Virus record (IMG/VR): IMGVR_UViG_3300000101_000138
Span: 1 to 25,747 of that record
Length of the DNA: 25,747 nt
DNA from: a virus
Strand: one strand, 5' to 3'
This document shows, in pieces, positions 3,801 to 22,752 of the stretch (positions are counted from its first letter, which is position 1; every line of letters starts with the position of its first letter). Under the pieces are notes generated by a model. It saw nothing but the letters and a program-made list of their open reading frames with translations. It had not been told where the DNA came from and made no database searches. Position numbers and translations under genes: made by a program.

Positions 3801-6542
3801 TTGTAAAAGTGTTTGACCAACAAGGGCAAAGTCTTCTTGCCATATTGGACCGACTGGAGATGCTGTAAAGGCAAGACCGTTTGTAAAGTCATCTACAAAG
3901 AATCCCGTCTTCGAACGAACCGCTCCATCGCTGTCCAGTTCAACCAAGTTAATGGCAGACTGTTCGATAGCAGTTAGAGAAACAGTTTCTTCTAACAGTT
4001 CTACGCGATCTTCTAGGGTTTGAATATCTTCCATAGTAAAGCGTTTGTAGCTATGAGTAACAACCGCCATGTCTGTTGTACTAATAGTGTTCCCACCATA
4101 GTTAATAGTAAACAGTATCATTTCTGATGTAACTGGTGGTGGCGCGTGAGCAATCAACTCCTCAAACCCTGTATTGATTCTTATCTCAGGTTTGAATGTT
4201 GTGGGGTTGTATCCTAAAGAGACATTATCAACTCTTCGGTTGTACCATTCAATATCGTAACTTATTTGCCCACCATCTTTCGGAAGTCTAAACCTATCTG
4301 CTGCTGGCATAACTTCTAAAGAAGTATCCAACTTAGAACGGAAATCAAACTGGTTTCTCAAATCGTAGGCAATGCCGTTGCGACCAGAGGTGTAAACTGG
4401 TATCTCTGAATATGAGAACTTAGGTTCTGTGTCAGTCGAGTCTACTGCGTCAACTAACCTGTAAGAGTTGACAGAAAGGAAGTCTCCAGCACTGACATCG
4501 TTTGACCATTCAAAGTTATCGATCTTTGCATATATGGTTCTAATCGAACCTTCTAGACCAGCACGTTTTAATGATATCGGGGAATAGAAGTTGTCGCGTT
4601 GACCGCCATCGAACTCTAGAACATCGGCAACGGGAACTTGTGTTGCGCCATCTAAACGATAAGCACCTAGTAGACGAACACCGTCATATTTGGCACCGCC
4701 CGTTCTTACAAAGTCAGCACTATCATTAGGGGAAGTCCACTCTTCAAAACCACTTCGTGTAAAGGTTTTGATTTTTGCTGAAGCACCCAAGTCAGTAGCA
4801 AGGGCAAACACGCAATAATCTTTGGAGGCAGTTAGACCAGTTACCGTAGCAATGTTTCCAGCAAGGGTAATGGTTGTAATAATTTCCATTTTATCGTCAG
4901 TAAGGTTTATGAATATCCACTCTAAGATATTATCAAATCTATTTTCGATGCCACAGTCAAGAGACATGCCACCAGAACCATCGCTGGATTGCAAGAACTG
5001 TCGCTGTGATGAGAACAATACATCACTGACACTCTTTGCTCGACCACCTGGAATTTCAAACAGGGAGGTATTGATTTCTGGGTCTATGATATATGCATTG
5101 GTTCCTTCAAGGAAAACAGGCATACGTTCAGTATCAGAACCAGCAGAGATAAAGTCTACTGTGCGGAAGTTTTCATTATCATCCATTCTAACATCATACA
5201 GATATACTTGAACACCTTTAGGTGATGCGTTTGGCAGTCTGGTCAAAGACTTGATTCTGGTTGTTCCTATCTGCTGATTGGCAGCGTTGAACAATTTGAA
5301 TTGTGTTTGAGTTCTTAGATCACCACTTGCTGGCCACTCCCCAAGTCCCGAATCCACATCAGTGGTATTTGATACTGGGATAAAGTTTCTGTATGCTATG
5401 GTTGTTGTGGTGTTATCTTCTGTACTAGTACTTACTGGTTTTTGAATCGGATAGTCTGAATCATAACCCACTTCCAACCTGTATCCATCAACAAATGCAG
5501 TTGCTGAACCTTCATTTGAAAGTCCTAGAACGCTCATCGTGAGACTCGATTGGTCATTTCCTGCTTGATATGAAAGACCAAATGGATTAACTATGAAGTC
5601 GCCATTAGTATCAAACTGCCTTTGCGCCATGCGCGTTTCTATCTGATTGAAGTCATTGTTAGGTGTCTTTATCTTAGCGACCAGACCACTCTTGACTTGA
5701 GCAAACGGTAGGAAGTCTAATGCATCATCGACCGCATCCTTTGTAGTAAGTATCAAACGGATACGATATCGGTCTGCACCAGGAGATGCTAAGTTAGGGA
5801 CAGCACCCTGATTGTCATAAAGACTAACATCGTCTTCTACAGTAACGATGTCTTGAATAACTTGAAAACCAACCTCCACATCAACATCAATTTCATATGC
5901 GGAAATAACTATCTCTTGTCTCTCAACAAAGACAAAGTGACCTTGTGAGTAAAAATCACTTTGCTGTATTGTGAACAACAAACCCTGACCAGTTGACAAA
6001 GGTGCGCCTGAACGAGTGGCAACTACTAGCGGTGTCAGTGGGGTGAGGTCTTGATCGTTAAGGGTATTACCATCAACATAGGTTAGTGCTTCACCTTGCA
6101 CATCCGATGATGTAATACCAGACTGATCTGTAGAACTATAAAAACCGTAGAGAGTTGCGTATGAAGTTCCCTCAATGGCAGGCGATGCAAAGGAGACAGT
6201 AAACTCCAAACCGTTATGGACGTTAGTTACTGCTGGACCTTTTAATACCCTACCAACGTATCTCTGAATAGAAACGTTACCAAGTGCGCTCGTATCAATT
6301 AGGACATACGATGCTTGGTCAACTCCTGAACCACCAGATGCATTAGTGACAGCAGCACCATCTTGAAAAATGTTGTCAGCAAATGTGCTGATTTGATTTT
6401 GCAGAATAGTCTGTAACTGTGTCAGTTCCCTTGCTTGAAGATAACGAGAACTATTAAAGAGTATCTTATAAAAACCCGCACTGTCCGAGTAATCATCATG
6501 ATAGAAATCTCTAATAGTATTTTCTGTAAAATCCTTCGGCAT
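834..6542 (-). CDS. Very large virion structural protein, DUF4815 type (baseplate/fibre)
   Basis: 1902 aa, the longest gene in the window. The N-terminus matches what I know as DUF4815 of phage structural proteins: FYHDDYSDSAGFYKILF, then YLQARELTQLQTILQNQIST and ADNIFQDGAAV. A short coiled coil lies at residues about 837-862 (MEDIQTLEDRVELLEETVSL), consistent with trimerisation. Around 1100 there is a low-complexity Gly/Ser/Thr segment (VRGGGSKSTTRSNVVTTTTL) followed by GLRPDTRYWPYFEGVDV. A later domain (YDPLAQSFEID, VDVYLRRAP, VYLSGGTEYAIVLLAE) looks like a beta-sandwich of carbohydrate-binding type. In T4 the genes after gp8 are gp9-gp12. This protein may take over gp10-like peripheral baseplate or fibre-attachment roles, which is inference. 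Its ribosome-binding site is AAGGA; its stop overlaps the next start as TAATG. Confidence 0.82.
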   Translation of the reverse strand: MPKDFTENTIRDFYHDDYSDSAGFYKILFNSSRYLQARELTQLQTILQNQISTFADNIFQDGAAVTNASGGSGVDQASYVLIDTSALGNVSIQRYVGRVLKGPAVTNVHNGLEFTVSFASPAIEGTSYATLYGFYSSTDQSGITSSDVQGEALTYVDGNTLNDQDLTPLTPLVVATRSGAPLSTGQGLLFTIQQSDFYSQGHFVFVERQEIVISAYEIDVDVEVGFQVIQDIVTVEDDVSLYDNQGAVPNLASPGADRYRIRLILTTKDAVDDALDFLPFAQVKSGLVAKIKTPNNDFNQIETRMAQRQFDTNGDFIVNPFGLSYQAGNDQSSLTMSVLGLSNEGSATAFVDGYRLEVGYDSDYPIQKPVSTSTEDNTTTTIAYRNFIPVSNTTDVDSGLGEWPASGDLRTQTQFKLFNAANQQIGTTRIKSLTRLPNASPKGVQVYLYDVRMDDNENFRTVDFISAGSDTERMPVFLEGTNAYIIDPEINTSLFEIPGGRAKSVSDVLFSSQRQFLQSSDGSGGMSLDCGIENRFDNILEWIFINLTDDKMEIITTITLAGNIATVTGLTASKDYCVFALATDLGASAKIKTFTRSGFEEWTSPNDSADFVRTGGAKYDGVRLLGAYRLDGATQVPVADVLEFDGGQRDNFYSPISLKRAGLEGSIRTIYAKIDNFEWSNDVSAGDFLSVNSYRLVDAVDSTDTEPKFSYSEIPVYTSGRNGIAYDLRNQFDFRSKLDTSLEVMPAADRFRLPKDGGQISYDIEWYNRRVDNVSLGYNPTTFKPEIRINTGFEELIAHAPPPVTSEMILFTINYGGNTISTTDMAVVTHSYKRFTMEDIQTLEDRVELLEETVSLTAIEQSAINLVELDSDGAVRSKTGFFVDDFTNGLAFTASPVGPIWQEDFALVGQTLLQTGETTYAIEPKNARAAVSLMFDSGGDTNAGGYEKGRAVVYDKLNNDGNNNYKHVGDTIYLDYVDTLDESLVNQSISWKSGGVDYEESGYYNVNPFNVFTGEGSLKLSPERDLWFDDIHLPDINITTTIRNVRRLLPINIVNNDGMSLEAATAEAAARNVQNDIDIMNKDAPRNSSFKVRGGGSKSTTRSNVVTTTTLTSRKNERMVVAYPFARSRPIYCKAQGLRPDTRYWPYFEGVDVSQWCHALTETRYEQHLEDGDHLKTYAPVNVNILSAPDGSSDLVTNRLGEVYYSFYLPNNRKVPSNNGRAFSSFEEWKEWGNEQQRLSSATGASIKDPTVYDALGWKFRGGILQMKLLDVSPVNGQGADESQALSRASMTYPAMGLVRVQQQTSRYTRNIAGSTQTTNTSNTGFTVYKYDPLAQSFEIDARTGLPGAFVTKVDVYLRRAPVTDQNGGTQTAIPLQLQIRETEAGVPKSHPVTEQFRVYKSADDCYDVVNNIADLENLDDVLANPVTFVFEEPVYLSGGTEYAIVLLAECNNYEAFVSTTYGLVLGKTTSRINKQPASGSLFLSQNGSTWTAQQDQNLAYRIHTAKFKQEGNVNFYNSTYPKFVHNQLMMSVDSADFTRFRVNQFAHGLGIGDSVALTGLIDAKDYLGLTGSQILNKDNVVNEADAAGYFVNVPNGGTFSSAGVFGETVCQSNNAFNFDRALMNFTSLDFEGTSINYEGDFMSGISLSKLSLTEANDARFERGGVTTIRNNAPIYYSKPRLLGDSDMELDAQSANGPSIVMSANMKSTITSTFGNTTPQQQADGYVSDVSPIIDLQKCNFTMQNFQIDNQVDSAGESGNAVQNKPFFFVPETNPQSGSSPSKQITKPVVLDLAASGIKVFVDINKPPSASFDLYYRLANGDADIYGVTWVKATPDNNPPDDKFEALTYDPLDLFYSEYRYLLGGVNGDLDDFTSFQLKVVMKTTNTCEIPVIGSIRAIALI

Positions 6543-6553
6543 TATCTTATCCT

Positions 6554-8062
6554 TTATAAATCTATGATTATCTTGATATCTTCAGTTTGGTTAGCATCAC
6601 GTTCAATGGGAACCCTATTATCTATGTATAAGACTTCGCCTGAGAAGTTATCCATGCCAGCATATCGCAACATGGGACCGCCTTCGGGGTTAATAATACT
6701 CGTTCCAGTATTGCTTCCGATTTGTATTGCAGTTCCGTCAACATTGGTAAACTCTTCCCAACCAGTGTACAGAGTTTGGTGACAGTGAATTATCGCTTCA
6801 GTTGCGCTAACCTCTTGATAGTAATCAACGATTGCCTGATTTTCGGGGTTAGCGACTTCATATACGATTGCGTCCACACCAATTGTTGTTTTATCAACGT
6901 TGGTTGGATTGATGTATAACTTCTTCATGGCAGAAGCGACAAGAGAAGTAAGCGGTGCGGGAGCTGCTGAATCCTTTGTTGGATTTTCTATTAATCCGAT
7001 TTGACGGAAGTCATTCTGGACATTGAATATTTCATATTCATTACCAACCAATCGTGCTGTGTACATAAGAGCAGAACTATTCAAATCATTTCTTGGGTCT
7101 GCACCCATACCACCTGGATTGAGGTCAACGATTGGGCGTAGTACTGCGCCAGTGCCAGTGCCACTTGAATCAGCATTTGGTAATGCCCATGTGGTTTTGT
7201 CATATCCCGCACCAAACTCATACTCATTCAGGTCGTATTTGCTTTTCATAATACACTGAAAGATTTTTCCGTTATTATCTGTCCTAGCGTATGCTCGCGC
7301 AACATCTGTTGGGTTGTTACCTTGAACATTGACCAGAACAGATATTGTGGTATTACTAGGATATCCAATGCCGCTAGAGTCAACCGCAACTCCAATGACC
7401 TGACCTGGAATAGCATCATTCTGCAATATGTATTGTTCTGCTCTTGATGCCGACAACTCTGCAATGGGTTTACCACCCACTTCAGTTGGGGACGGCACAC
7501 GTTCAACGGGAATGTAGTTAGAAGTAAGATACCTCTGGGCATTGAACACGCCAACGTTGTACATGAACTTCCAAGTGTAACCATCACCTGTCTCAAAAAC
7601 TGCTGAAGTTATACCAGTTGGTTTGTTCAGTGAGTTAGAAACGACACCAGTATTACTGATACCCTGTTGGATACAGATGTAAACATTGTTCTGATCGGTG
7701 ATAACATAGTAAGCACCAACGATGTCGTTTAGAGTTCCAAAAGTTGTGTCTGAACTATTATTATTATCCCACGGAGTGTAGATGCTTCCTGCTGACCAGT
7801 TAACGCGAGGTATCACATAGGATACATCTTGAACCTTCTTAACTGATTGCAAAGAAGATTGGAACTGATTCACATCGTTAGTTGATGGATTCGGCACTGG
7901 GGGAACGCCAGCAGTTTGCCACTGCTCTGCCTTGCCGATACCTATATAATAGTTATCGGGGGCGACTGCTGGGATTGCACCGTCTTGAAGTTTACCAGTA
8001 TAAGAAGCATAGAGATCATCCAATAATTCTTTCTTCAGTGTATCTGTTATTGTTGCTGCCAT
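6554..8062 (-). CDS. gp8: Baseplate wedge protein gp8
   Basis: This matches T4 gp8, the dimeric wedge subunit that packs against gp7 and gp10. Shared features are YYVITDQNNVYICIQQG (residues 118-134; T4 has a comparable YVMTDDFQVFKCI stretch) and a PTG...F(E)TGDGYTWKFMYNV block at about 148-170. The family's N-terminal 'YYIGIGKAEQW' and 'SYVIPRVNWSAG' motifs are also present. At 502 aa it is longer than T4 gp8 (334 aa); the extra length is mainly C-terminal. A strong ribosome-binding site (AGAGGAAG) sits 6-13 bases before the start, immediately after the upstream stop. Confidence 0.9.
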   Translation of the reverse strand: MAATITDTLKKELLDDLYASYTGKLQDGAIPAVAPDNYYIGIGKAEQWQTAGVPPVPNPSTNDVNQFQSSLQSVKKVQDVSYVIPRVNWSAGSIYTPWDNNNSSDTTFGTLNDIVGAYYVITDQNNVYICIQQGISNTGVVSNSLNKPTGITSAVFETGDGYTWKFMYNVGVFNAQRYLTSNYIPVERVPSPTEVGGKPIAELSASRAEQYILQNDAIPGQVIGVAVDSSGIGYPSNTTISVLVNVQGNNPTDVARAYARTDNNGKIFQCIMKSKYDLNEYEFGAGYDKTTWALPNADSSGTGTGAVLRPIVDLNPGGMGADPRNDLNSSALMYTARLVGNEYEIFNVQNDFRQIGLIENPTKDSAAPAPLTSLVASAMKKLYINPTNVDKTTIGVDAIVYEVANPENQAIVDYYQEVSATEAIIHCHQTLYTGWEEFTNVDGTAIQIGSNTGTSIINPEGGPMLRYAGMDNFSGEVLYIDNRVPIERDANQTEDIKIIIDL

Positions 8063-8075
8063 TTTTGTTCTTCCT

Positions 8076-8714
8076 CTACCAGAAGTTATCTATTTTAATA
8101 AAGCACGAATCACCAGCAGATATACTGCCTTCCCTATATATCGCTCCTGGATTTGAAGTTTGAAAATACCAGTAGTCGGAAGAGTCGGGCGCGAAAGTGT
8201 ATGAACTTGGATATCTTTGACCTGCTGCTGGACTAGTTGCCGATGGTGGGTTGGATTGTGTTTTGTAATACAACGTCCCAGTGTACTGCCCAACAATTTC
8301 GTAACTTGATAACGATGAGTCAGTAGTCTTTTGATACATGGTCAGAGTAGTTGCTGTTGTAACAGAATCATATAGTCCAGTTCCGCTGTTCCAATTTCTT
8401 TGAACAGGAATAACTCTTGCTGCTCCGCTTTCGTCAAACTGAGAAATCCTAAAGTTGACAAAGTCTGTCATGTTAGAAGGAGTGCCATTGTTACGAGCGT
8501 TCACCTGACCAGCAGAAGGTATAGAATAAGCATCAGTAACAGTGCCAAATACGAACGATCTGCCTGGTTGCTCTTCTGTGCCATTATAAGTGGACTGCCA
8601 GAGGGAGGCAAAGTTATTATTTATTTTATCTGCGGCATCGCGCAAACTATCGCCTGTGCCATCGTTTGCCATTGCACCATTCGAAATAGTTTGTTGTGTT
8701 GGTATTGTCGCCAT
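8076..8714 (-). CDS. Small fibre/baseplate-associated structural protein
   Basis: 212 aa. The N-terminus has NDGTGDSLRDAADKINNNF (residues 17-35). I recognise this short helix motif from many T4-like and other phage fibre or neck proteins, where it precedes a beta-structured body. The rest is Ser/Thr/Tyr/Gly rich and beta-like (YQKTTDSSLSSYEIVGQYTG), ending in a compact tail (GDSCFIKIDNFW). There is no membrane segment or signal peptide. The gene sits between the repeat fibre genes and gp8, after its own late promoter. Its TAG stop lies directly before the gp8 ribosome-binding site. A trimeric fibre or fibre-connector role is inferred. Confidence 0.65.
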   Translation of the reverse strand: MATIPTQQTISNGAMANDGTGDSLRDAADKINNNFASLWQSTYNGTEEQPGRSFVFGTVTDAYSIPSAGQVNARNNGTPSNMTDFVNFRISQFDESGAARVIPVQRNWNSGTGLYDSVTTATTLTMYQKTTDSSLSSYEIVGQYTGTLYYKTQSNPPSATSPAAGQRYPSSYTFAPDSSDYWYFQTSNPGAIYREGSISAGDSCFIKIDNFW

Positions 8715-8742
8715 GAATCTATTCTCTTATTTGCCCTATGAG

Positions 8743-8752
8743 TTTATTTATA
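8743..8752 (-). promoter_or_regulatory. T4-type late promoter before the 212-aa gene
   Basis: The minus strand reads TATAAATAAA, with the exact octamer at 8752-8745, 31 bases before the ATG at 8714, in a 62-base gap. It would drive the 212-aa gene, gp8, the DUF4815 gene and the two small genes after it. Confidence 0.85.
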
Positions 8753-8776
8753 CAACTTATAATAACTTTTTATGGA

Positions 8777-9958
8777 CTATTCTGGTTGGAGTTCACCAAT
8801 AACATATATGTCATCTGGACCCATGTAGTCGTAGAGTTCACCACCTTCCATATAGACGTAAGGGGTAAATGCTTCTGCTGCTCCTTCAACAGTGGACACA
8901 GGTGCTAAGAGTATTCCAGCACCAGTTATTGCAGGTGTTATTGAACCAACACCATCAGCAGTGGAAACTTGTGCCTCTAGTGTTCCAGAACCAATTACTT
9001 CATTTTCAGATGATCCAACAACTATTGCTGATCCCGCTTCCAGTATTCCAGCACCAGTTACCACAGGTGTTACTGAGGCAGCACCATCAACAATAGCAAC
9101 TTGTGCTAATAGTGTTCCAGCACCAGTTATTGCAGGTCTGGTTGCGGCCGCACCGTCAACGATGGATACAGATGCTAAGAGTATTCCAGAACCATCTGTT
9201 TCATTCTCTGCTGCTCCATCAACAATGGATACCTGTGCTTGCAACGTTCCAGAAGAAGTATGGTTATCTACAGCAAGACCATCCACGGTTGATACTTGTG
9301 CTACAAGTATTCCAGTACCAAGGACTAGAGGTCTGCCTATGCCAAGGGTAGTTGATGATTGCGCCTCAAGTGTTCCAGTGCCAGTGTGTTCGTCTTCAGA
9401 TAGACCAACCACTACTGAGTTTGTGGATAGGAGTATTCCTGAAGCAGTATGGATATCTACAGCGATACCATCAACTATTGATACTTGTGCTTGCAGTGTT
9501 CCTGAAGCAGTATGGTTATCTACAGCAAGACCATCAACAATGGCAACTTGTGCTAAGAGTATTCCAGAACCAACTACTTCATTTTCAGATGAACTAACAA
9601 CTATCGCTGGTTGCGCTTGCAGCGTTCCAGTGGCAGTACGAACTTCCAGAGCCCTAGTAGCAACACCAGTGACGACTGAATTCTCAGCATTCAGATTTCC
9701 ATAAGCAGTAGGATTCGGATACACTGCACCTTTGGCATCCCAGTAAGTCTTACTGAGTTCTCCCATAGTTTCATTGCTTCCCAATGCAGGATTTCCAACC
9801 ATACGAACATCAGTATAAACCTGTTCTCCGTTAGGGTTCGTCCTAATTCCTGCGGTTTGTTTTAACCACAGAGGATACAGTCCACTGGTCGGACCTGGGT
9901 TTGGTGGATCGTCATTGTAATCCCAATAGGGATTGTTAGCAACATTTCTCCATGCCAT
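8777..9958 (-). CDS. Repeat-containing fibre protein, partner of the 1313-aa protein
   Basis: A unique head of about 86 residues (MAWRNVANNPYWDYNDD, LWLKQTAGIRT, TYWDAKGAVYPN) precedes 13 tandem copies of a 21-23-residue unit at residues 87-362. The consensus is SGTLxAQVSIVDG plus variable residues such as LAVDNHTA or AGSITPAITG. These are the same repeats as in the neighbouring 1313-aa gene. The protein ends with a short Tyr/acidic tail (FTPYVYMEGGELYDYM, then IYVIGEL) that echoes the PYVGMPFP hinge following the repeats in the larger protein. It has no receptor-binding domain of its own. It could be a shaft, a decoration, or a fibre that lost its tip. The head motif 'PLWLKQTAGIR' recalls phage virion decoration or tail proteins, but I cannot place it. 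It has its own late promoter and an AGGA ribosome-binding site. Confidence 0.75.
   Translation of the reverse strand: MAWRNVANNPYWDYNDDPPNPGPTSGLYPLWLKQTAGIRTNPNGEQVYTDVRMVGNPALGSNETMGELSKTYWDAKGAVYPNPTAYGNLNAENSVVTGVATRALEVRTATGTLQAQPAIVVSSSENEVVGSGILLAQVAIVDGLAVDNHTASGTLQAQVSIVDGIAVDIHTASGILLSTNSVVVGLSEDEHTGTGTLEAQSSTTLGIGRPLVLGTGILVAQVSTVDGLAVDNHTSSGTLQAQVSIVDGAAENETDGSGILLASVSIVDGAAATRPAITGAGTLLAQVAIVDGAASVTPVVTGAGILEAGSAIVVGSSENEVIGSGTLEAQVSTADGVGSITPAITGAGILLAPVSTVEGAAEAFTPYVYMEGGELYDYMGPDDIYVIGELQPE
8873..9700 (-). repeat. Tandem 63-69 bp coding repeats in the 393-aa gene
   Basis: Thirteen head-to-tail units of 21-23 codons. The strongest conservation is in the part coding (S/T/A)G(T/I)L.AQ.S.VDG. 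On the + strand the units appear as a recurrent 'agtgttcca' or 'agtattcca' followed by a variable stretch ending near 'acttgtgct'. Copies differ by point changes and by in-frame length differences of one or two codons. The same unit occurs at 12933-13625. Confidence 0.9.
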
Positions 9959-9990
9959 TTCTTTATGTCCTACTTTGTTGTTCTATTGGT

Positions 9991-10000
9991 TTTATTTATA
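9991..10000 (-). promoter_or_regulatory. T4-type late promoter before the 393-aa repeat gene
   Basis: The minus strand reads TATAAATAAA, with the exact octamer at 10000-9993, 35 bases before the ATG at 9958. It sits in a 79-base intergenic gap, the largest in the window. An AGGA ribosome-binding site lies between it and the start. Confidence 0.85.
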
Positions 10001-10037
10001 CTAATTTATTATAGTCGGATGCTGCCATCCCATACCT

Positions 10038-13000
10038 TTATCCCAAGTCCATCAATAAATCTGGGTAACGAACATACTGAAGACTTGAAGTTCTTGAACC
10101 AGCAGTTTCATTGTTGATTAGATAAACACCGTGTATGGTAGAGTTGTTTAGGTTAGAATTATTAGTTGCAATGTCGTAAGTATTAGAGAAAGTTGTTCCA
10201 CCTTCAGTAGTAGTTAAAGGTATCAACGTCCCGCTGTATTGGTTAGTGCTTGTCACTAAAGTGTCAGGGAGAGGTCTTGTCCCTGCATAACATCTAAGCA
10301 AACCGTTTGTAACTTTCATCTGCAACTTCAGTTCTATTCCGTCTGTGTGCGGGTAAGGTGCGCTTATGCCGACTAAGTTTAGGTCAGTGTCTTGCTGCCC
10401 AACTTCAAAGAGTGCGAGGTAAGATGCGTTTCCTGCTGCTCCAGCATACCAAACAAATGCCAGACCAAACTCAGTTGTGGTAGCATTCATACAGACCATA
10501 GGTCCAGCAGATACTCTTTGGTCGCCTGACCACGGTGCTTGCGCGGTCACGTTAACAATTCCGCTATCCTTATATCCAACTGCCCTAGAGGTTCCAGTAG
10601 CACTCGGTGATACGATCGTCCAGTTTGTTTGTGTCCAATATTCGTAACTTGGATCGTTGTTAATACCGATAACACTAATAGGGTCCCAGTAAGTACTCTG
10701 TCCACTTATGTTGTTAGCAGAACTGTAAAGTCCAAGATCGCTCTGACTATCGTTGGTGCTAAAACCTGAAGACGTATTATAGACACCAGTAAGGACACCA
10801 GTAGTATCATTACTTATTTCTCTACCTACTGGGGTAACACCTGTTGGCCAGAAGTTCCACAGGTCGCTCTCAGTAGGAAAGTTACCCGCTGCTATGTATG
10901 TTTGGTTAGCAACTACATCAATAACAGGTTGACCGCCAGTAGTTTGAGCGAGGAAACTATTCTTAATTTTGTAAGGACCGTAGTCGCTTGCAGGTAAATC
11001 AGCAGCAGTGTTAGGTTGCCACTGAGTATTAAGAACAGATGTTTTCCATTCATTTCCACTGAAAGAATATTCGTATCCTTGAATTGGAAGAATCTCTATG
11101 CTGAAAAAGAATTTGAACTTATAGTTCTTCGAGGCATTACTGGTAATGCCGCCAAAAGCAATCTCAAAGACGTTGTTTTCAAACACTAAGTTGCGCGGTC
11201 GTTGAGGCGCGTTACTACCAGTCGCATATGGGTCTGGAGTAAATGATGTTGGTGTCTGTGTGGTATATGTCGAACCATTACGAGGGACTGTTGTATACTC
11301 AGTACTTGATCCCTGAACAACAGCGATGGCCTCACTATTGTCAGTATCTGGACCAGCGACAAATCTAGAGTTCTTAATTAAGGCATTTTGTGCATCTGCT
11401 TTGACTTGCAAGAAACGTTGCCCAGGGTTATAAGATGTCGCGTTATCAACCGTCACATTACGAGAGTCGCCAACGGAGAAACTACCGCCAGCAGTTCTAT
11501 CATAATCATCATTATAACTGATATGATTTATGACGGTAACATGCCTCACATAATGTCCAAATGTTATTCCAGCATTTCCATTATCGTGACTCGTACATCC
11601 TATTACAGTAATGAAGGAACCTGAAGTAATATCAAATCCGTTTTCAGCATTATCGAATGAAATACAGTTTACGACTTTATGATTTGCTCCAATATCATCC
11701 TGTCTTGAATTATTTGGTGAACCCGTATTATTTGGGTCAGTGTAAGGATTATCTTTATGGTATACAATTCCATCATTGGCAAAGCATCGACCAACTGTGG
11801 AATTTTGCAGCAGTGTGTTACTACATGGAAATCCTCTATTGGTGGATGGCGTTGCTGGAAAGTCGCCTTTCGATCCAAGGAAACCGAAACCATTGTTCAT
11901 GTTATCTGTTGCTATGCAGTTATCTATGAAGTAGTATTCTCCAGCATTAAATATGATTCCGTTTTTGAAATACTTAATGTAGCAGTCTTTGACTGTGACG
12001 TATGAACACCAATCATCGACAAGTGGAGTTCCAGTTCCGTTGGCTTCCCAATTGACACCTCTACCACCAGATGTTACTGCTGTACCAGAGCTACAAACAA
12101 ACGCCAAACCTTCAAAAGTCATATGGGTAATACGTTTCATATTAAAGACACTTAAACTATCAGCGTATTCGAAGTGGTGGGTCGATAAGACTTCTCCTGG
12201 TTGGGGTTTGTAATATAACTTACTAGAATCGCCCCACCATTCTCCACCAAGCAAATCATTAGGATTGTTAGTTGAAACTCTCCACTCAAGTTTGGATGCT
12301 CTCAGTATTCCCATAACACCGTTAGCGGTCCATTCAGATGCCGAACATGAGAAGAGCGCAGTCTTTGTAATAACAGTAGATGGGAATGGGTTCGTAACTT
12401 CCCAAACACCAGTGTAAGTGGAAGATGCGACCCACCCTGTGGTTTCAGTCGCTTGTGTAATGTAAGTATTAGGGTACTGAGTAGTTGGTCTATCTGGATA
12501 CTCACTCAGGTAGGCAGTAGAGTTGGGGTCGCCTTTCAACGCTATTGGGTTGAGTGCTGTTCCATATTTGTCGTTCAAATAAGCGACTGAAGAACTTGAT
12601 TGCGCTCTGTATGGATTTTGAGGACCGTTGTCAATACCTATGGTTACATAACCAGGGACTAATCCGTCTTCAATAACTTTGTCTATGCTTGCCCACGGTG
12701 TTGCTGCACTACCGTCACCAGTTACGTCATTACCCAAGAGGTTGTCATAATAATATGTTCCAAGCATTACAGGTTGCAGTCCATCAACTTCTGAATTAGA
12801 AGACAGCAGAGTGCCACTTGCCGTGTGTGCTGGGGATGTACCTTGGACAACACCGTCAACGTATATTTCGGGGAAAGGCATACCGACATATATTTGAGGG
12901 AAGGGCATGCCCACATAGGGTTCGATAGTATTACCGTCACCATCAACATCGGCAACTTGTGCTAGGAGTGTTCCAGAACCAGTTATTGCAGGAGTTACCG

Positions 13001-13979
13001 AGGCAGCACCATCAGCATCAGCAACTTGTGCTAGGAGTGTCCCAGAACCAGTTATTGCAGGTCTTATTGAACCAGCACCATCAACATCGGCAACTTGTGC
13101 TTCTAGTGTTCCAGAGGCGGTTGCTGTTTCAGTTGGTGTACCAACAACTGTTGATACCTGTGCCAGTAGTGTTCCTGAACCAATTATTGCAGGTGTTATT
13201 GAACCAGCACCATCAACTGTTGATGCCTGTGCCTCAAGTGTTCCAGAGGCGATATTTTCAAGATCAGATAACCCAGACGCTGTTGATGACTGCGACTCAA
13301 GTGTTCCAGAACCAGTTATGATGTTCTCAGATAAACCATCAACCGTAGAAACTTGCGCTTCCAATGTTCCAGAACCAATGTGCTTATCGACAGCGAGACC
13401 ATCAACAGTTGATGCCTGTGCTTCAAGACTAGTATCAACATTAATTATTCTTTCTGATGTGGCAACAACAGTTGATGCCTGTGCCTCAATTTCTCCAGTG
13501 CCAGTGTGCTTATCTTCAGCGACACCATTGACTATTACAACTTGCGCTTCCAATGTTCCACTTGCATTAATAACATTTTCTACGATACTACTAACTGTTG
13601 ATCTTTGCGCCTGAAGATTTGATACTCCAATACTGTAAATAGGTGGTTGTCGTCTTCCTGGTTGTTCTGATTCGAAGTCCAACTGGTATCCCAGCATGTT
13701 ATTGCCGTAACCATCTGAGTCTACTTGCAACCAGTGATTTTCATCCATAGTGTTTATGGTATTAGAAAAGTCTGTGAACCCCCTGACTATTCCATCAGAA
13801 TCAGCATCGAAAGTCCTTGACTCAATTGCATCAAGATCAACGATATCATTATATTGGGTATCAAGTTCCGCGATAGTAAAACTACCAATCGCATTACTAT
13901 CCGACATATTCATTATGTCGTTTATCCTTGAACGATATACTAATCCGTTAAAGAGGGGATCGTTGCTATTTATTGGCAT
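10038..13979 (-). CDS. Large tail fibre/spike protein: tandem repeats, parallel beta-helix, beta-sandwich-like C-terminus
   Basis: A modular 1313-aa adhesin-like protein. Residues 1-118 are a unique head, probably for attachment to the baseplate. Residues 119-350 hold about eleven imperfect 21-23-residue repeats (consensus SGTLEAQVSTVDG plus 8-10 variable residues), presumably an extended beta shaft. Then comes a hinge with a duplicated YVGMPFP unit (355-373) and one more repeat relic near 388. From about 405 (YYYDNLLGNDVTGDGSAATP) it reads like a pectate-lyase-type right-handed beta-helix. Coils such as FITVIGCTSHDNGNAGITFG and HVTVINHISYND are seen at about 615-865. The last 160 residues are beta-rich and may be a LamG-like tip. 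Substrate and any lyase activity cannot be told. Host-surface polysaccharide binding is the likely role. Ribosome-binding region reads AAGGG. Confidence 0.78.
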   Translation of the reverse strand: MPINSNDPLFNGLVYRSRINDIMNMSDSNAIGSFTIAELDTQYNDIVDLDAIESRTFDADSDGIVRGFTDFSNTINTMDENHWLQVDSDGYGNNMLGYQLDFESEQPGRRQPPIYSIGVSNLQAQRSTVSSIVENVINASGTLEAQVVIVNGVAEDKHTGTGEIEAQASTVVATSERIINVDTSLEAQASTVDGLAVDKHIGSGTLEAQVSTVDGLSENIITGSGTLESQSSTASGLSDLENIASGTLEAQASTVDGAGSITPAIIGSGTLLAQVSTVVGTPTETATASGTLEAQVADVDGAGSIRPAITGSGTLLAQVADADGAASVTPAITGSGTLLAQVADVDGDGNTIEPYVGMPFPQIYVGMPFPEIYVDGVVQGTSPAHTASGTLLSSNSEVDGLQPVMLGTYYYDNLLGNDVTGDGSAATPWASIDKVIEDGLVPGYVTIGIDNGPQNPYRAQSSSSVAYLNDKYGTALNPIALKGDPNSTAYLSEYPDRPTTQYPNTYITQATETTGWVASSTYTGVWEVTNPFPSTVITKTALFSCSASEWTANGVMGILRASKLEWRVSTNNPNDLLGGEWWGDSSKLYYKPQPGEVLSTHHFEYADSLSVFNMKRITHMTFEGLAFVCSSGTAVTSGGRGVNWEANGTGTPLVDDWCSYVTVKDCYIKYFKNGIIFNAGEYYFIDNCIATDNMNNGFGFLGSKGDFPATPSTNRGFPCSNTLLQNSTVGRCFANDGIVYHKDNPYTDPNNTGSPNNSRQDDIGANHKVVNCISFDNAENGFDITSGSFITVIGCTSHDNGNAGITFGHYVRHVTVINHISYNDDYDRTAGGSFSVGDSRNVTVDNATSYNPGQRFLQVKADAQNALIKNSRFVAGPDTDNSEAIAVVQGSSTEYTTVPRNGSTYTTQTPTSFTPDPYATGSNAPQRPRNLVFENNVFEIAFGGITSNASKNYKFKFFFSIEILPIQGYEYSFSGNEWKTSVLNTQWQPNTAADLPASDYGPYKIKNSFLAQTTGGQPVIDVVANQTYIAAGNFPTESDLWNFWPTGVTPVGREISNDTTGVLTGVYNTSSGFSTNDSQSDLGLYSSANNISGQSTYWDPISVIGINNDPSYEYWTQTNWTIVSPSATGTSRAVGYKDSGIVNVTAQAPWSGDQRVSAGPMVCMNATTTEFGLAFVWYAGAAGNASYLALFEVGQQDTDLNLVGISAPYPHTDGIELKLQMKVTNGLLRCYAGTRPLPDTLVTSTNQYSGTLIPLTTTEGGTTFSNTYDIATNNSNLNNSTIHGVYLINNETAGSRTSSLQYVRYPDLLMDLG
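12933..13625 (-). repeat. Tandem 63-69 bp coding repeats in the 1313-aa gene
   Basis: About eleven units of 21-23 codons, coding SGTLEAQVSTVDG-like modules. They are homologous to those at 8873-9700. The three copies nearest the hinge (SGTLLAQVADVDG type) are the most alike, as expected from recent local duplication. The outermost copies near 13600 are the most diverged. Confidence 0.9.
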
Positions 13980-13985
13980 TTAACT

Positions 13986-16388
13986 CTACCCTTCCACTGA
14001 TGTTAAATAGTTTTTAGTTATCCACTCACCACTGCCCAGAAGTGATGCATTCTCTGATGCACCTGTGGCAATGCCGTTCTGGTCATAACCTAGCATAGTC
14101 AATCCGCTACCCTCTTGCATCGGATAGTATCGCGTGTTCGCACCGTCTTCTAGTCGCACGTTCCATAGTGTTGCATTGATAGTTGAACCTATGAGATAGT
14201 TTATTTCAACAACTTGGGAAGGTGTGATATTGGATGTGATAACGCTTTCCGATCCATTATCTTCTGGGTTGATGGAAGTCACTACAACACTATTAGAGAG
14301 ATGCTCAATCTTAATAGCAAAGTAAACGTCAACCACTACTGGTAGTATTTCAATAGTTTCGATTCCTCCAGCATGCTCAAAGGAATATGTTAGAATGTCA
14401 CTACTGTTAACTTTAAGACCAACAGTATCATTATTAGTATCCCATATCACCAGTGATTCGACACCCGATAAAGTGTTGACACCCATAGTTAAAGAAATAG
14501 TAAATCCGACAGCAGAACTACTTGTCCAATTTGGTACGCTGATGTTAGTCCCTTTCCAAACTGGAATGCTTGTAGCACCCCATGTTCCGCGACTTGGTGG
14601 TGGAACCGAGATGTCCATATTTGTGTTTGGCGTGTTATTATCTTTGTAAGCAAAGAATGTATCACCAGTTCCTTCTCGCAATGGGTAGTCAACGGTATTC
14701 GATCGGTCGATAGCATCGACTAATACCACATCCCATATCGCGCCTTTGAAGTCATCACCTATGGCACTTACGATTGGGAAGTATTCAACAGAGGCATTGT
14801 AAACGTTATTGACCCCATTAGAACTAGTAGATATCTGAGTAGCAGTTACTACAATTTCTGCTGAATAAGTTCTACCCAATAAAGCATTTGTCTGCACATC
14901 AACATCAACCAAGTTCAGAGTTGTCTCTTCGACATACCTGTAGACAAGTTTGTCTGGAGTTGCTGCTGGAAATACAAGACCATGTTTAAGTCCACCGCTA
15001 GTGGCACTCAGTAACCATTGGTCTGCTGCTTGCGTAGTCTTTCTGTTGAACATCAGATTAATTATGGAGTTAACTTCACCGACCCATTGCACAGGTAATA
15101 TCAAGTTGCCGTCTATCATATTGAAAACAAGTGGTGATGGTGCGGGTTTAGTGGGTTCAACTCTAGTGTTAAGTTCAGTGACTTCAGAATATGCAAACTC
15201 ATCAAACTTTCCAGTGCCTTCGTATTCTATGTCATATTTTTCTATGCTTGTAGGTTGAGCAGACAGACCAATATTTGATTCTGTTTCTATCAACACTTCT
15301 CCCGCCAAGTACACACCTGAAGGATGGATGAAGTCTTTGTAAACATCTCTCCAAGCATTGACAGAGATGGGCGTTTTGATAAGAAGAGAGAACACTTGGT
15401 AGTATGCGTTATCAGTTATTTTTTTGTTACTGATATCACTGCCTAGTGGGGAACCAGCAGGGAACCTTCTTGTTGTCTCGATTCGTGACTTAGGATACCT
15501 AAGAGGACCGAAAGGTACACCAGCAAAATCTAGTTCCTGACTTGGGGGTGCGATCTCTCCAAACTCTGCAAGGTAATCCAACCAAGGGTCACCCTTCTTT
15601 AAGGAGTTCTCCAATCCAGGTTTTAGGAAAGCGATAGTGTTGCTGTTGTAATCGACCTCGTAGTCTAGGTCTTCTCTCAAAAGATAGTAGACATTGTAAG
15701 TTGTTTTTACTGCCGTCCTTATGATGTAATCAACCACGCCCTCATCATCTATATAATCAAGCAGTGCTGTTTCGCCTTCTCTTATATAAAGCGAAGGGAC
15801 GATTTCGGATTTGGGAGTGAGTGCAAGGGCATAGACTTGTATGATACCATCATCAAAGTTGAACTTCAACCTGTTGCCTGGATAGAGTATGGAAACAGGA
15901 TTGCCACTAGGATCAGTTCCCCCCGAACGATATTCTGAAACAAACAATAACTTCTCTTGCGCTGGGTCACCAACAGTAAATATTTCATCGCGACCATATT
16001 GAATGTTAATATCGAACCCAAAGAATATTCTAAAGAACTGTTCGATAGAGAAAGACGAACCCTTAGAGCGATACAGTAAGTTTGATATTTGTATTGCTGA
16101 TTCTTTGTCTAAAATACTATCGGTATAGTCCTTTCCCAGAAACAACTCTTGACCAATCAACTGGAGGAGTTGCGGAGTCACATCTGCCATATCTCTGTTG
16201 TGCTGTAACTCATTCAGAAACTTAGCGGGACTTTTTATTGAGTCATACTCTTGATAATATGATGTGAGGAACTCAACAAACTTTGGGTATATTGTTGCGA
16301 AGTCGCCTGTCAATATTGGAGCGACAGGAAACTTATCCAACTTTAATGGAAGGCGATACTGATCCGATAGAGTTTTATCCAGACTCAT
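13986..16388 (-). CDS. Baseplate wedge/tail protein at the gp7 position, with LamG-like C-terminus
   Basis: The N-terminal 120 residues (FATIYPKFVEFLTSYYQEYD, then LLQLIGQELF and SKGSSFSIEQFFRIFFG) resemble the start of large baseplate proteins in myoviruses. Residues 328-367 carry another pattern I associate with such proteins: YYQVFSLLIKTPISVNAWRD and DFIHPSGVYLAGE. Its place directly after gp6 is that of T4 gp7 (1032 aa), so it may be the functional counterpart. I see no convincing full-length gp7 similarity. The C-terminal half (about 425-800) contains two copies of a concanavalin/LamG-type edge motif: IWDVVLVDA with YPLREGTG at 551-575, and LWNVRLEDG with YPMQEGSG at 741-762. These bracket a beta-rich stretch and suggest a glycan-binding domain. 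The ribosome-binding site is CAGGG. Structural role is confident, exact identity moderate. Confidence 0.72.
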   Translation of the reverse strand: MSLDKTLSDQYRLPLKLDKFPVAPILTGDFATIYPKFVEFLTSYYQEYDSIKSPAKFLNELQHNRDMADVTPQLLQLIGQELFLGKDYTDSILDKESAIQISNLLYRSKGSSFSIEQFFRIFFGFDINIQYGRDEIFTVGDPAQEKLLFVSEYRSGGTDPSGNPVSILYPGNRLKFNFDDGIIQVYALALTPKSEIVPSLYIREGETALLDYIDDEGVVDYIIRTAVKTTYNVYYLLREDLDYEVDYNSNTIAFLKPGLENSLKKGDPWLDYLAEFGEIAPPSQELDFAGVPFGPLRYPKSRIETTRRFPAGSPLGSDISNKKITDNAYYQVFSLLIKTPISVNAWRDVYKDFIHPSGVYLAGEVLIETESNIGLSAQPTSIEKYDIEYEGTGKFDEFAYSEVTELNTRVEPTKPAPSPLVFNMIDGNLILPVQWVGEVNSIINLMFNRKTTQAADQWLLSATSGGLKHGLVFPAATPDKLVYRYVEETTLNLVDVDVQTNALLGRTYSAEIVVTATQISTSSNGVNNVYNASVEYFPIVSAIGDDFKGAIWDVVLVDAIDRSNTVDYPLREGTGDTFFAYKDNNTPNTNMDISVPPPSRGTWGATSIPVWKGTNISVPNWTSSSAVGFTISLTMGVNTLSGVESLVIWDTNNDTVGLKVNSSDILTYSFEHAGGIETIEILPVVVDVYFAIKIEHLSNSVVVTSINPEDNGSESVITSNITPSQVVEINYLIGSTINATLWNVRLEDGANTRYYPMQEGSGLTMLGYDQNGIATGASENASLLGSGEWITKNYLTSVEG

Positions 16389-16391
16389 TTG

Positions 16392-18302
16392 TTATACCCT
16401 GCTTGTAACTGTTACCGCATTTACCGAAGATTCCGAAGCGTCATATTGTAGTATTCCACTAAACCTTGGAGTGACAGCAGACTCGTTAGCAGGAATGCCG
16501 AAGACCTTAATATAGTTAGATTGGTTATTAGTATTTTGAACATTGAGACCTAGTATCTCAACCGCGCCAGTGAGTGGTTCATAGTATCCCATGTAGTCTT
16601 CCACTATCACTCCCTTGGCATTTACCAACTCCAACTTGTTCGATGGTTTCCTATCAAAAACTATTGGAACCACACCTTCACCAGAGACTTTAACTTTGTC
16701 GAGAAGTTTGTTTCTTATGTAAACATCTTGGTTTTGGTATTTAAAGAATCCGCTTCTAACAACTGGGGTCGTTAAGTCTTCTGGATTTTTAAGAGCAGAA
16801 CCAAATGTGAATTTTTGATTTTCGGGTAAGGTTAAAACAGGTATGATCCTCTTTTGCAGTAGTACATCTGTCCTTGAAGATAGAACAGACGGATCAGTAT
16901 CGTCAACTTCTGTTAGCAGATTAGACCTACGGAACACCTGTGCAAACTTACCGATATTTGACGTAAAGTAATTGGTGACAGTCCTCTGGACAGAAGCATC
17001 AACAACTGACTGACTGCTTGCACCAAGCAAGGGGTTGTATTGGTAAAACAACTTGGTAGAAACATAGGTTTCGCTTGGGGCAACGAACTTGATATCAAAG
17101 GATACTACAGAGAGTTCCTCAGTGAGTTGTGCTATTGATCTCCGCAGTTCACTGATAGCAGTACTACTCAGGTTATCCTTCCAGACAATTGAGGTGAATG
17201 TCGTTCCATACTCTGGTGGGAGATTGTCTTCTCCACCCCAGCAGATGATGTCAGTAATGAAGTTACCATACTTACGCAAGATGAGTGCTTCATAATCTAG
17301 AGGAGTCACCATACGATTCTGTGCAGAGTATTGGAACGGTGCTTTCTTCCGAATGGATTCGATGTCTTCTTTCTCAGTTCCACCAGCAGATGTTGTCAAG
17401 GTAGTTATTGAAACTTCATCGGGTCTAACTATGTACTCGCCCAGTTTCAAAGTGCTGATAAGTCTGAAGGTAGAAATTCCGTTTGCAGTTTGACCACTTG
17501 CGCGGAGATAGTTTACATCAACAACGTTTCCAGCGATGGGCGAAACACCCAAAGAATTGAATGCACCAAATGTCAACTCATAGAATTGGTTTGGGGACTC
17601 TCGCAAAACATACAAAGTTGATTGGTTTGTGATGGAAGACACATCGAATATGTCATTGTAAACAGTGTATGCGCCAACGCCAGTTGCAGCGACACCTGGG
17701 TCTGTGTAAACTTTGACGATAGCGGTACTTGCATCTATGTTCTGATCGGGTATTACATAAAGAGCATTTTCACTTCCGTCAACTAAGTATTGCTGTTCTT
17801 GTTCTTCTCCCTCGAAGACAACGATAGAGGCATCTGGATCGTCAAACGGATAGAAGGTGTAGATGTTTGTGCCTTGTGCATCTGCGGTTATGGTTTTTCG
17901 ATTACTGAAAGTGTAAACATCTCCATCGATACTTCCCCTAAGAACTAACTCCCCAGGTTGGAAGGAATAAACTTGATCGAAAGGATATCCACCAGAAGGT
18001 TGAATAGTGAGACCAACTGTTGCTTGTGAAGAGTTCCTACTTCCAGGGATGTATCCCAAAGTCTCTGCCAAAGATACGACAGAGTTTCTTAACTGGGCAG
18101 TCCCAAGATAGGATTCATTCAAAGCAAAGTTTGCAATGAGTCCACTGAAATGCGTGTTGTAGGAAAGCACATCCAGCAGACTGTTCAAACCAGAACCTTC
18201 AAAGTTGTAGTCTGAGAATGCTGCGTCTTGTTTAAAGAAGACCTTTAAATTAGACTTGATGTCTTGAAAGTCTAACTCTGTTGATGTAATAGTTGTTGCC
18301 AT
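16392..18302 (-). CDS. gp6: Baseplate wedge protein gp6 (Baseplate_J type)
   Basis: This protein of 636 aa is close to T4 gp6 (660 aa), which dimerises to form the inner ring of the baseplate. The N-terminus carries the family pattern LLDVLSYNTHFSGLIANFAL, then NESYLGTAQLRNSVVSLAETLGY. The middle has IRKKAPFQYSAQNRMVTPLDYE, then ILRKYGNFITDIICWGGED, the hallmark of gp6/gpJ-type proteins. No truncation or frameshift is visible. It begins one base inside the gp25 stop and ends 3 bases before the next gene, so all three wedge genes are likely one translation-coupled unit driven by the late promoter at 18847-18856. Confidence 0.93.
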   Translation of the reverse strand: MATTITSTELDFQDIKSNLKVFFKQDAAFSDYNFEGSGLNSLLDVLSYNTHFSGLIANFALNESYLGTAQLRNSVVSLAETLGYIPGSRNSSQATVGLTIQPSGGYPFDQVYSFQPGELVLRGSIDGDVYTFSNRKTITADAQGTNIYTFYPFDDPDASIVVFEGEEQEQQYLVDGSENALYVIPDQNIDASTAIVKVYTDPGVAATGVGAYTVYNDIFDVSSITNQSTLYVLRESPNQFYELTFGAFNSLGVSPIAGNVVDVNYLRASGQTANGISTFRLISTLKLGEYIVRPDEVSITTLTTSAGGTEKEDIESIRKKAPFQYSAQNRMVTPLDYEALILRKYGNFITDIICWGGEDNLPPEYGTTFTSIVWKDNLSSTAISELRRSIAQLTEELSVVSFDIKFVAPSETYVSTKLFYQYNPLLGASSQSVVDASVQRTVTNYFTSNIGKFAQVFRRSNLLTEVDDTDPSVLSSRTDVLLQKRIIPVLTLPENQKFTFGSALKNPEDLTTPVVRSGFFKYQNQDVYIRNKLLDKVKVSGEGVVPIVFDRKPSNKLELVNAKGVIVEDYMGYYEPLTGAVEILGLNVQNTNNQSNYIKVFGIPANESAVTPRFSGILQYDASESSVNAVTVTSRV

Positions 18303-18823
18303 TATCGTAACCTATTCATATTAACGTCAATACTGACAGTCTCGTTAGTGTTCAATATTACCCCAACCACTGTTATCATGATGGCGTATCTGCCCTCGCT
18401 TCCATAATTCCAGTAAGTCAAACTGGTAGCACCTTTTGGAACTTGCTTATTCGCTCCGATATCTGTGAAGATAACGTCTTCTACTCTAATCCTCGGTTCA
18501 AATTTCTTGATAGCATTTCGAACAACCTCGTCAATAATTGATTCAGAATAGTATTCTATGCTCTCAAACAAGAACGACCGTAGGTCTGCACCAAAGTCTG
18601 GTACAAAGGGTTTCTCATTTTTGTTGGTGAGAAGTATTGTGCTTACACTTTGTATGACTGCTGCAACGTCAACCTTCTTATAAACATCACCGCGCCTCAC
18701 ACCATCAGAGTCCACCGTTCCTATCTTTGGGAGGAACGCCAAGTCAATATCCTTGTAAAACTTCTGCTTCTTAGTTACGAGGGTCTTATCGGTAAGTCCA
18801 GGTGTTATTCTTCTTAGTGCCAT
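18302..18823 (-). CDS. gp25: Baseplate wedge protein gp25
   Basis: This is a gp25-type wedge subunit (GPW_gp25 family), which forms the wedge core with gp6 and contacts the sheath's first ring. The signature is at residues 70-87: EKPFVPDFGADLRSFLFE. It is followed by SIIDEVVRNAIKKFEPRIRV, typical of the family's helix and final strand. At 173 aa it is longer than T4 gp25 (132 aa), mainly through an N-terminal extension. Despite historical naming, the family is structural and is not known to be a lysozyme. It is the first gene after the late promoter at 18847-18856, and its stop overlaps the gp6 start as TAATG. The gp25-gp6 pairing is conserved across contractile tails, which supports both calls. 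Confidence 0.93.
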   Translation of the reverse strand: MALRRITPGLTDKTLVTKKQKFYKDIDLAFLPKIGTVDSDGVRRGDVYKKVDVAAVIQSVSTILLTNKNEKPFVPDFGADLRSFLFESIEYYSESIIDEVVRNAIKKFEPRIRVEDVIFTDIGANKQVPKGATSLTYWNYGSEGRYAIMITVVGVILNTNETVSIDVNMNRLR

Positions 18824-21204: not shown

Positions 21205-22752
21205 TTAAAAGTTCTCAAGTCCAGCGACCTGAGTATCCTTTTCAGTGATAAGTAACTCAGGGTCATCTATAGATGAGATGATTTCTTCGGGCGATTTTTC
21301 CGATTCACTCATCGGGTCAATGTAGAGACTTCGCTTGTTGAAAGCATTGTAAACATAATCACGAACCTCAAACCCAGGGTCTAATTGACTAAGGTCAAAT
21401 TCTCCGTGACCAAGTGCCTGACCGCCTGGAAACTGTACATAGAAAACACGGAACAGTTGGTGCAGTGTATTAAATTGTGTTCTTGTAATACTAGAAGCAC
21501 CAAGGTTTCCGTTAATCGCATCATCCCCACTAGCAACATTGACTCCACCAACGAGACAGATTTGTATGGAGTATGTATTATGTCCAGGGGATGCGCTGCC
21601 TGTACCATCCAAAGGCACACCCCTCTCCATAGAACCATCTCGCTTTATTATATAGTGGTAAGCATTGCTTCCCGCGCCTGTCAGTTGTTGCAGTTCTAAT
21701 CCTGTAAGATTTGCGTTGGTATATGTTTCAGACCAATGGACAATAACTTCTGATATGGGTCTAGTTATTGCAGACATCTCGCATTCAAGTTCTTCAACAG
21801 AAGAAACAAATCTTCCTCCTGCGGTCATGAATTGGTTGGTGTCTCCCGACTCAAACTCCCAGTTGCCGTCAACGCCTTTGAATTGTTTATCAGGAGGGGG
21901 TACGGGAATATTGAGATTGGGTGGATTGGCAGCAGTTATTACTATACCTTCAGCAGTGACAGTCGGAGTGGCGCTTGGAGTGGCGCTTGGAGTGCTACCG
22001 CCACCACCACCACCGCCAACTGTACCATCCCCAGGATTGACCGACTTTAATAGTCCATCTCCACCTGTCAGTTTATCAAACTCAGAATTAACTTCTGCCA
22101 TTTTCTCATCATACTCTTGCCTGATAGACTCAAGCGATCCTTCTCCAGAAGATGAAGTGTCTTTGCTGACAATTCCATTTGCCATACCAAAAAGTCTACT
22201 TGCTTTCAATGCCATTGACAAACCAGATTCGGTCTGCCCCGAAACAAAGGGAAGCATTATCCCAGAGACTTCAGAGTAAAGACCAAGAGCTGCGGTTCCA
22301 CCGTTCTCCATAAGAGACTGGGTGACTAGTCCAACCACTTTGGTTTTTATTTCTTGAGGAATATTGCCGTCTGTTAATGCTTGAATACCATTTTCAATAT
22401 ATGATGCCACTGTCGCCATACTAGTTACGATTTCCATTATCTGACTTATCTCATCACTCAGATCAACATATTTAACTATGTCTCCGATGCTTGCGGGTGG
22501 GTCTTTCAACGCATCAAGGAGGGGTAAGTTAAAATTCAACTCTGGTAGCGATGGCAAATCATTACCAACCAGATCATCAAGTGCTTGTGTAGGGTCAAGG
22601 TTTGGCACTTGCTCAAGTGAAATATTTGCATACACCTCATCAATATATGACGAAGGATTCAATGGTCCAGTAACAAGGTCTGCTGCTGCCTTGCTGTTGG
22701 TCATTGTCTCAGCAAGGAAGGTGTTCTGTGATGATGTATCTAGAATCGCCAT
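21205..22752 (-). CDS. Baseplate-associated N-acetylmuramoyl-L-alanine amidase, T7-lysozyme type
   Basis: Residues about 330-470 match Amidase_2/T7 lysozyme, zinc enzymes that cut the MurNAc-L-Ala bond of peptidoglycan. The segments ISEVIVHWSET, 'AYHYIIKRDGSMERG', 'YSIQICLVGG' and GHGEFDLSQLDPGF line up with T7 IFVHCSAT, GYHFIIKRDG, SIGVCLVGG and AHHEVAPKACPSF. Putative zinc ligands are His339, His448 and Asp458 (Cys130 in T7, Asp in AmpD). Tyr365 matches T7 Tyr46, but the Lys128 position is Gln456. Residues 1-230 are an unrecognised, largely helical domain (EIVTSMATVASYIENGIQAL) that may dock to the baseplate. Residues 240-265 are a flexible linker with seven Gly followed by STPSATPSATPT. 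The gene starts inside the upstream stop codon (TAATG). It probably supplies the wall-cutting activity that T4 keeps inside gp5. Confidence 0.85.
   Translation of the reverse strand: MAILDTSSQNTFLAETMTNSKAAADLVTGPLNPSSYIDEVYANISLEQVPNLDPTQALDDLVGNDLPSLPELNFNLPLLDALKDPPASIGDIVKYVDLSDEISQIMEIVTSMATVASYIENGIQALTDGNIPQEIKTKVVGLVTQSLMENGGTAALGLYSEVSGIMLPFVSGQTESGLSMALKASRLFGMANGIVSKDTSSSGEGSLESIRQEYDEKMAEVNSEFDKLTGGDGLLKSVNPGDGTVGGGGGGGSTPSATPSATPTVTAEGIVITAANPPNLNIPVPPPDKQFKGVDGNWEFESGDTNQFMTAGGRFVSSVEELECEMSAITRPISEVIVHWSETYTNANLTGLELQQLTGAGSNAYHYIIKRDGSMERGVPLDGTGSASPGHNTYSIQICLVGGVNVASGDDAINGNLGASSITRTQFNTLHQLFRVFYVQFPGGQALGHGEFDLSQLDPGFEVRDYVYNAFNKRSLYIDPMSESEKSPEEIISSIDDPELLITEKDTQVAGLENF
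21965..22020 (-). repeat. Linker microrepeats in the amidase gene
   Basis: On the + strand, ggagtggcgctt occurs twice in tandem (21965-21988), followed by a partial third copy and then a run of cca/ccg triplets up to about 22018. It encodes the SATPSATPT and poly-Gly linker between the N-terminal and amidase domains. Confidence 0.85.

Follow-up and report, generated by a model that had tools for sequence, protein, structure and literature searches.

The window, by which we mean the whole stretch of DNA analysed here (25,747 nt), is a 25.7-kb virus fragment, and its relatives, given L numbers below, are metagenome-assembled contigs. The minus strand of the window encodes a T4-like baseplate operon, including all parts of genes A and B. 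The order is gp25-like gene (18302-18823, named from its size and position only), gp6, gp7-like baseplate wedge protein (13986..16388), gene B, gene A, gp9/10-like wedge/fibre connector (8076..8714), gp8 and a 1902-aa structural protein. The operon matches PHROGs 219, 438 and 677 and the Pfam families Phage-Gp8, Baseplate_wedge and, weakly, T4_gp9_10_N, and the presence of gp25, gp6, gp8 and gp9/10 homologues together in one operon marks the virus as T4-like (Kyanoviridae-like). Its gp8 shares at most about 30% identity with sequenced phages, among which Phage C48C1 (Kyanoviridae) comes closest at 30%, and genes A and B, including both heads, have no match among cultured phages (INPHARED). Four sites in the window, each on the coding strand, match the T4-type late-promoter consensus TATAAATA, where 1.16 would be expected by chance; 3 of 100 shuffled sequences contain at least as many. 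One site lies before gene A (9993..10000, minus strand) and another before the gp9/10-like gene (8745..8752, minus strand), where it is kept in L006, L093, L010, L009 and L007. Around the start of the gp9/10-like gene, the preceding gap and the first codons (8637-8785) are 96% identical to L093, compared with 71-77% for the gene downstream; this conserved patch could be a recombination joint. Elsewhere in the window, a 515-aa hub protein (21205-22752) has what appears by eye to be an N-acetylmuramoyl-L-alanine amidase domain.

Gene A (8777..9958) encodes a putative tipless fibre of 393 aa, consisting of a head (aa 1-87; 9698..9958), a shaft of 13 repeat units (aa 88-370; 8849..9697) and a C-terminal motif, PYVYMEGGELYDYMGPDDIYVIGELQPE (8780..8863). 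Gene B (10038..13979) encodes a putative fibre of 1313 aa, in which a head (aa 1-119; 13623..13979) is followed by a shaft of 11 units of 21 or 23 aa (aa 120-358; 12906..13622), a linker (aa 359-388; 12816..12905) whose motif EPYVGMPFPQIYVGMPFPEIYVDGVVQ starts at aa 354, a single unit past the linker (aa 389-408; 12756..12815) and a tip (aa ~409-1313; 10038..12755). As proposed in the initial annotation, the two heads differ: BLASTP of residues 1-87 of A against residues 1-119 of B gives no alignment at E≤100. The A head is found only in L004/L006 and L005/L008, and the B head is conserved in L006-L010 and L093. The smaller protein had also been described as ending soon after the repeats, as though it were a tipless version. 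It is indeed tipless, but it does not merely stop, since PYVYMEGGELYDYMGPDDIYVIGELQPE is homologous to the linker motif of B; gene A therefore looks like a complete tipless fibre, not a truncated one. We also observed that the head of B resembles the C-terminal end of the gp7-like wedge proteins in L098-L107 (41-45% over 49 aa), and it may have originated as a part of gp7 that became detached.

The tip of B is predicted to form a right-handed parallel beta-helix with a C-terminal domain, matching Pfam Beta_helix with 27 bits (cut-off 25.9; 3.9e-06). A fold search with a low-confidence model of this tip returned phage depolymerases and tailspikes (E 2e-4 to 4e-2), and the tip probably binds or cuts surface polysaccharide. 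The shaft, modelled as a monomer, has two strands per unit at low confidence (pLDDT about 65), and fold searches of PDB and BFVD with this model gave no significant match. It is the position of the two genes, together with the fold of the tip, that suggests a fibre role for A and B.

The repeat unit has a period of 21 or 23 aa in both genes, with a consensus of roughly GTLEAQVSTVDGLAVDNHTAS. Scanned with an HMM of the unit, gene A shows 12 full units (aa 111-367), which a degenerate unit recognised by eye at aa 88-110 brings to 13. The same model detects 11 units before the linker of gene B, of which the first is weak (aa 120-140) and the other 10 are contiguous (aa 141-358), and 1 past it (aa 389-408). 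This bears out the earlier reading of a common 21-23-residue unit in 13 and about 11 copies. The arrays are also close at the DNA level, again as first noted: the 20-mer attgcaggtgttattgaacc occurs exactly at 8928-8947 and 13186-13205, with an additional copy at 13054 bearing a single mismatch, for 0.00 expected in shuffles. A search of gene A against the DNA of the window finds the shaft of B (1.6e-49, 69% over 500 bp), and the two proteins align by BLASTP at 2e-49 (46% over 260 aa), far above chance in both cases. Inside the window itself, however, no exact A/B match is longer than 23 nt, a point against exchange between the genes. The unit belongs to no Pfam or PHROGs family, neither database yielding anything for A and Beta_helix alone being found for B. 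A search with the unit pattern retrieved only four virus contigs other than the window, and nothing among the bacterial and archaeal genomes of the collection. We did not count the plus-strand open reading frames across the repeats as genes; most likely, they merely mirror the repeats in antisense.

A third gene built of the same repeats was observed in L109, on the contig to which L093 also belongs (IMGVR_UViG_3300009436_000066). It is an open frame of 2,717 aa on the minus strand (~4240-12393), with a probable TTG start and TATAAATA upstream, and consists mostly of repeat (38 units at E<1e-3, ~70 including degenerate ones). It sits between a homologue of window positions 6-605 and a small gene (MAQYEDIE...), a place where L118, L120 and L121 lack it; the window stops just short of the matching position.

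Among the relatives, B-type genes with clear repeats or a linker are found in five contigs: L006 (=L004), L008 (=L005), L009, L010 and L093. An alignment search with gp9/10 returned mostly distant phages, which we left out of the comparison. Apart from the window, only L006 and L008, the contigs closest to it, have gene A; elsewhere the gp9/10-like gene directly follows gene B, except in L095, where another gene lies between. In L011 (2-3622) a related head carries another large domain in place of the beta-helix tip, and in L007 (4113-10952) a related head is joined to that L011-type domain plus a beta-helix tip. The extra domain has no Pfam or PHROGs match, and we rejected its assignment as a beta-propeller, for which neither database offered support.

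The backbone genes of the window and L006 are 87-98% identical at the amino acid level, and units 0-11 of gene A match their L006 counterparts in order (81-98% at the DNA level). L006 has one extra 23-aa unit in gene A, whose nearest match is its own unit 9 (90%). In gene B, units 0-3 correspond between the two (79-92%) and the remainder is reshuffled in L006, which has 9 units before the linker, against 11 in the window, and 3 after it, against 1. L009 has 16 units ahead of the linker of gene B. Perfect self-repeats of 72 nt in gene B of L006 and of 85 nt in L009 suggest recent duplication. Constant copy number without exchange among close relatives would speak against the idea of unequal recombination between the genes, and the relatives divide on this point: L006 varies with respect to the window, but gene B of L006 and L008 differs at only 12 of 3951 nt (99.7% identical), with the B array unchanged, so that no variation shows over so short a distance.

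Metagenome assemblies may collapse repeats, and one contig, from 3300009526, breaks within the shaft of A; short-read assembly could thus have produced both the differences in copy number and the reshuffled array. We consider this unlikely, given that independent assemblies yielded two contigs with the same array B (2 differences in 864 nt), that the differing units are diverged and individually recognisable, and that the incongruence of the tips, described below, lies outside the repeats.

Comparing the arrays of A and B, we found that unit 8 of A and unit 5 of B in L006 have 45 identical nucleotides in common, within which gene A of the window differs at four sites, of which three are synonymous. 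Unit 5 of B also has, in its first half, 25 nt in common with unit 7 of A, including five such diagnostic sites; the best run between gene A of the window and gene B of L006 contains 3 diagnostic bases. Among the four A/B pairs of the window and L006, blocks of at least 24 nt occur only between A and B of L006. Together, the extra unit in gene A of L006, its reshuffled gene B and the 45-nt block support both unit gain and exchange between the genes. Gene A of L006 and gene B of the window share one 17-nt block with 9 diagnostic bases, and exchange may therefore run between phages as well as inside one genome. In principle, beta repeats converging under the same structural constraint might also account for the resemblance between A and B, as the motif is short, with few constrained positions, and the units are very degenerate in L007, L011 and L095. 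Such convergence is contradicted by identical blocks that include synonymous sites and by the homologous linker or cap past the repeats, and we regard it as highly improbable.

The tips have a history of their own. Backbone genes group the window with L006 (87-98% aa) and leave L093 outside, whereas the tips of L006 and L093 are 83% identical at the amino acid level, against 61.5% for the window and L006; the tip remnant of L009 groups with the window (85.6%). Topology tests reject each partition's tree for the other, with AU values of about 4e-7 and 5e-6, which are approximate (2000 resamplings). By DNA identity, the swapped segment starts at ~12,640-12,690 and extends slightly beyond the stop codon of gene B. 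The proximal limit is a conserved tip base (12640..12690, minus strand), the approximate crossover zone in which L006 turns from window-like to L093-like. This conflict between tip and backbone phylogenies, with a crossover in a conserved motif, is the pattern of T4-type adhesin tip swapping. The initial annotation had proposed that recombination between the repeats could change shaft length or swap heads and tips. Changes in unit number and order and transfer of DNA between A and B agree with this, and tips have been swapped between lineages, but the swap that sets the window apart from L006 did not run through the repeats: we dropped a crossover located there after fine alignment placed the switch just beyond them, at the tip base, with the other a little downstream of gene B. 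The heads of A and B showed no sign of exchange.

Tips have also been lost. In L009 the shaft is joined out of frame to the last 153 tip codons at a shared TGGTCTG, and gene B of L010 has no tip, although a trace of the tip end survives past its stop codon (score 36, against a shuffle maximum of 23). Behind the tip of L093 lies the frameshifted relic of a tipless end (score 59, against a shuffle maximum of 24), which most resembles the linker of L093 itself and is followed by the same bases as gene A (CAGAATAGTCCATAA).

These remnants bear on how the gene pair arose. One possibility, which we hold only tentatively, is that a cassette of tip, stop, promoter and new head entered the array of one ancestral tipless gene and split its shaft into B and A. 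Distal units of A and B in the window correspond (unit 11 of A with unit 8 of B, 88%; unit 9 with unit 9, 83%), although this similarity could stem from later gene conversion. L093, which has no gene A, carries the tipless-end remnant with downstream bases as in A, but this could also be the residue of a deleted gene A. The cap at the end of tipless B-type genes (L010, L095) is retained in gene A, and all more distant relatives are without A; however, no intermediate has been seen, and a shaft-to-shaft junction is absent from both L009 and L010. Alternatively, and we would put this too at well under even odds, a tandem copy of B may have become A through later tip loss and head replacement. 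The genes are adjacent, with a common shaft and cap, and tip loss does occur in L009 and L010, but the heads have no detectable similarity, and the short stretch separating A from the gp9/10-like gene holds no recognisable trace of a tip. More speculatively still, one undescribed repeat family may serve as pooled, interchangeable shaft material for several adhesin genes (A, B and the 2,717-aa gene), with a second fibre gene arising in one step by insertion of a tip-promoter-head cassette into an array.

From these observations, we hypothesize, with a probability of roughly 0.78, that A and B are modular fibres remodelled by recombination between their repeats, to which a separate exchange and loss of tip cassettes is added. 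The two would be baseplate-anchored fibres in which the head docks on the baseplate and is followed by a shaft of beta-rich 21/23-aa units and a short conserved IYV linker or cap, with a beta-helix tip only in B. Homologous recombination or replication slippage would gain, drop and shuffle whole or half units within each gene, because the units retain similar DNA anchors (GGA-ACA-CTN, GTT-GAT-GGT), so that shaft length alters with the reading frame intact; units would occasionally be exchanged between A and B. The tip would be a cassette traded between phages by separate crossovers, one at its conserved base and one in the gap that follows gene B; where the tip is lost, a tipless fibre would remain. 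Such remodelling may also affect host range.

Both kinds of change are known from other systems. In T4-like phages, domain duplications change the fibre, and recombination between conserved motifs in T4-type distal tail fibres and adhesins reportedly swaps adhesin specificity. As at the T4-type adhesin locus, tips here are traded by crossovers in a short conserved motif next to the tip; unlike that locus, the one in the window lies between gp7 and gp9/10, its tip is a predicted beta-helix and its shaft is a 21/23-aa tandem array common to two adjacent genes. The collagen-like side tail fibres of E. coli prophages likewise have modular heads and tips and a repetitive shaft, whose length differs by whole units among related proteins (PMC3368898). 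Those shafts, as described there, consist of Gly-X-Y collagen and coiled coil in another type of phage, differing from the unit in the window, and the passages considered here describe no adjacent gene pair with the same shaft. In the Campylobacter group II phages CP21 and CP220, the number of repeats varies between close phages, and the repeats are proposed as targets of module-shuffling recombination (PMC4546147); they link genome modules, whereas those of the window encode fibre shafts. Tip swapping of the T4 type and variation of shaft length by units are thus of kinds already known. Judged by the collections searched, what is new is the repeat family itself, its occurrence in two neighbouring genes and the third gene of 2,717 aa.

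We therefore regard the locus as a well-documented natural case of a phage remodelling its putative host-binding parts by what is probably recombination. The sequences offer snapshots of four ways of remodelling, namely gain and loss of units, shuffling of half-units, exchange between paralogues, and swap and loss of the tip, and the remnants left in relatives hint at the direction in which this remodelling has run.
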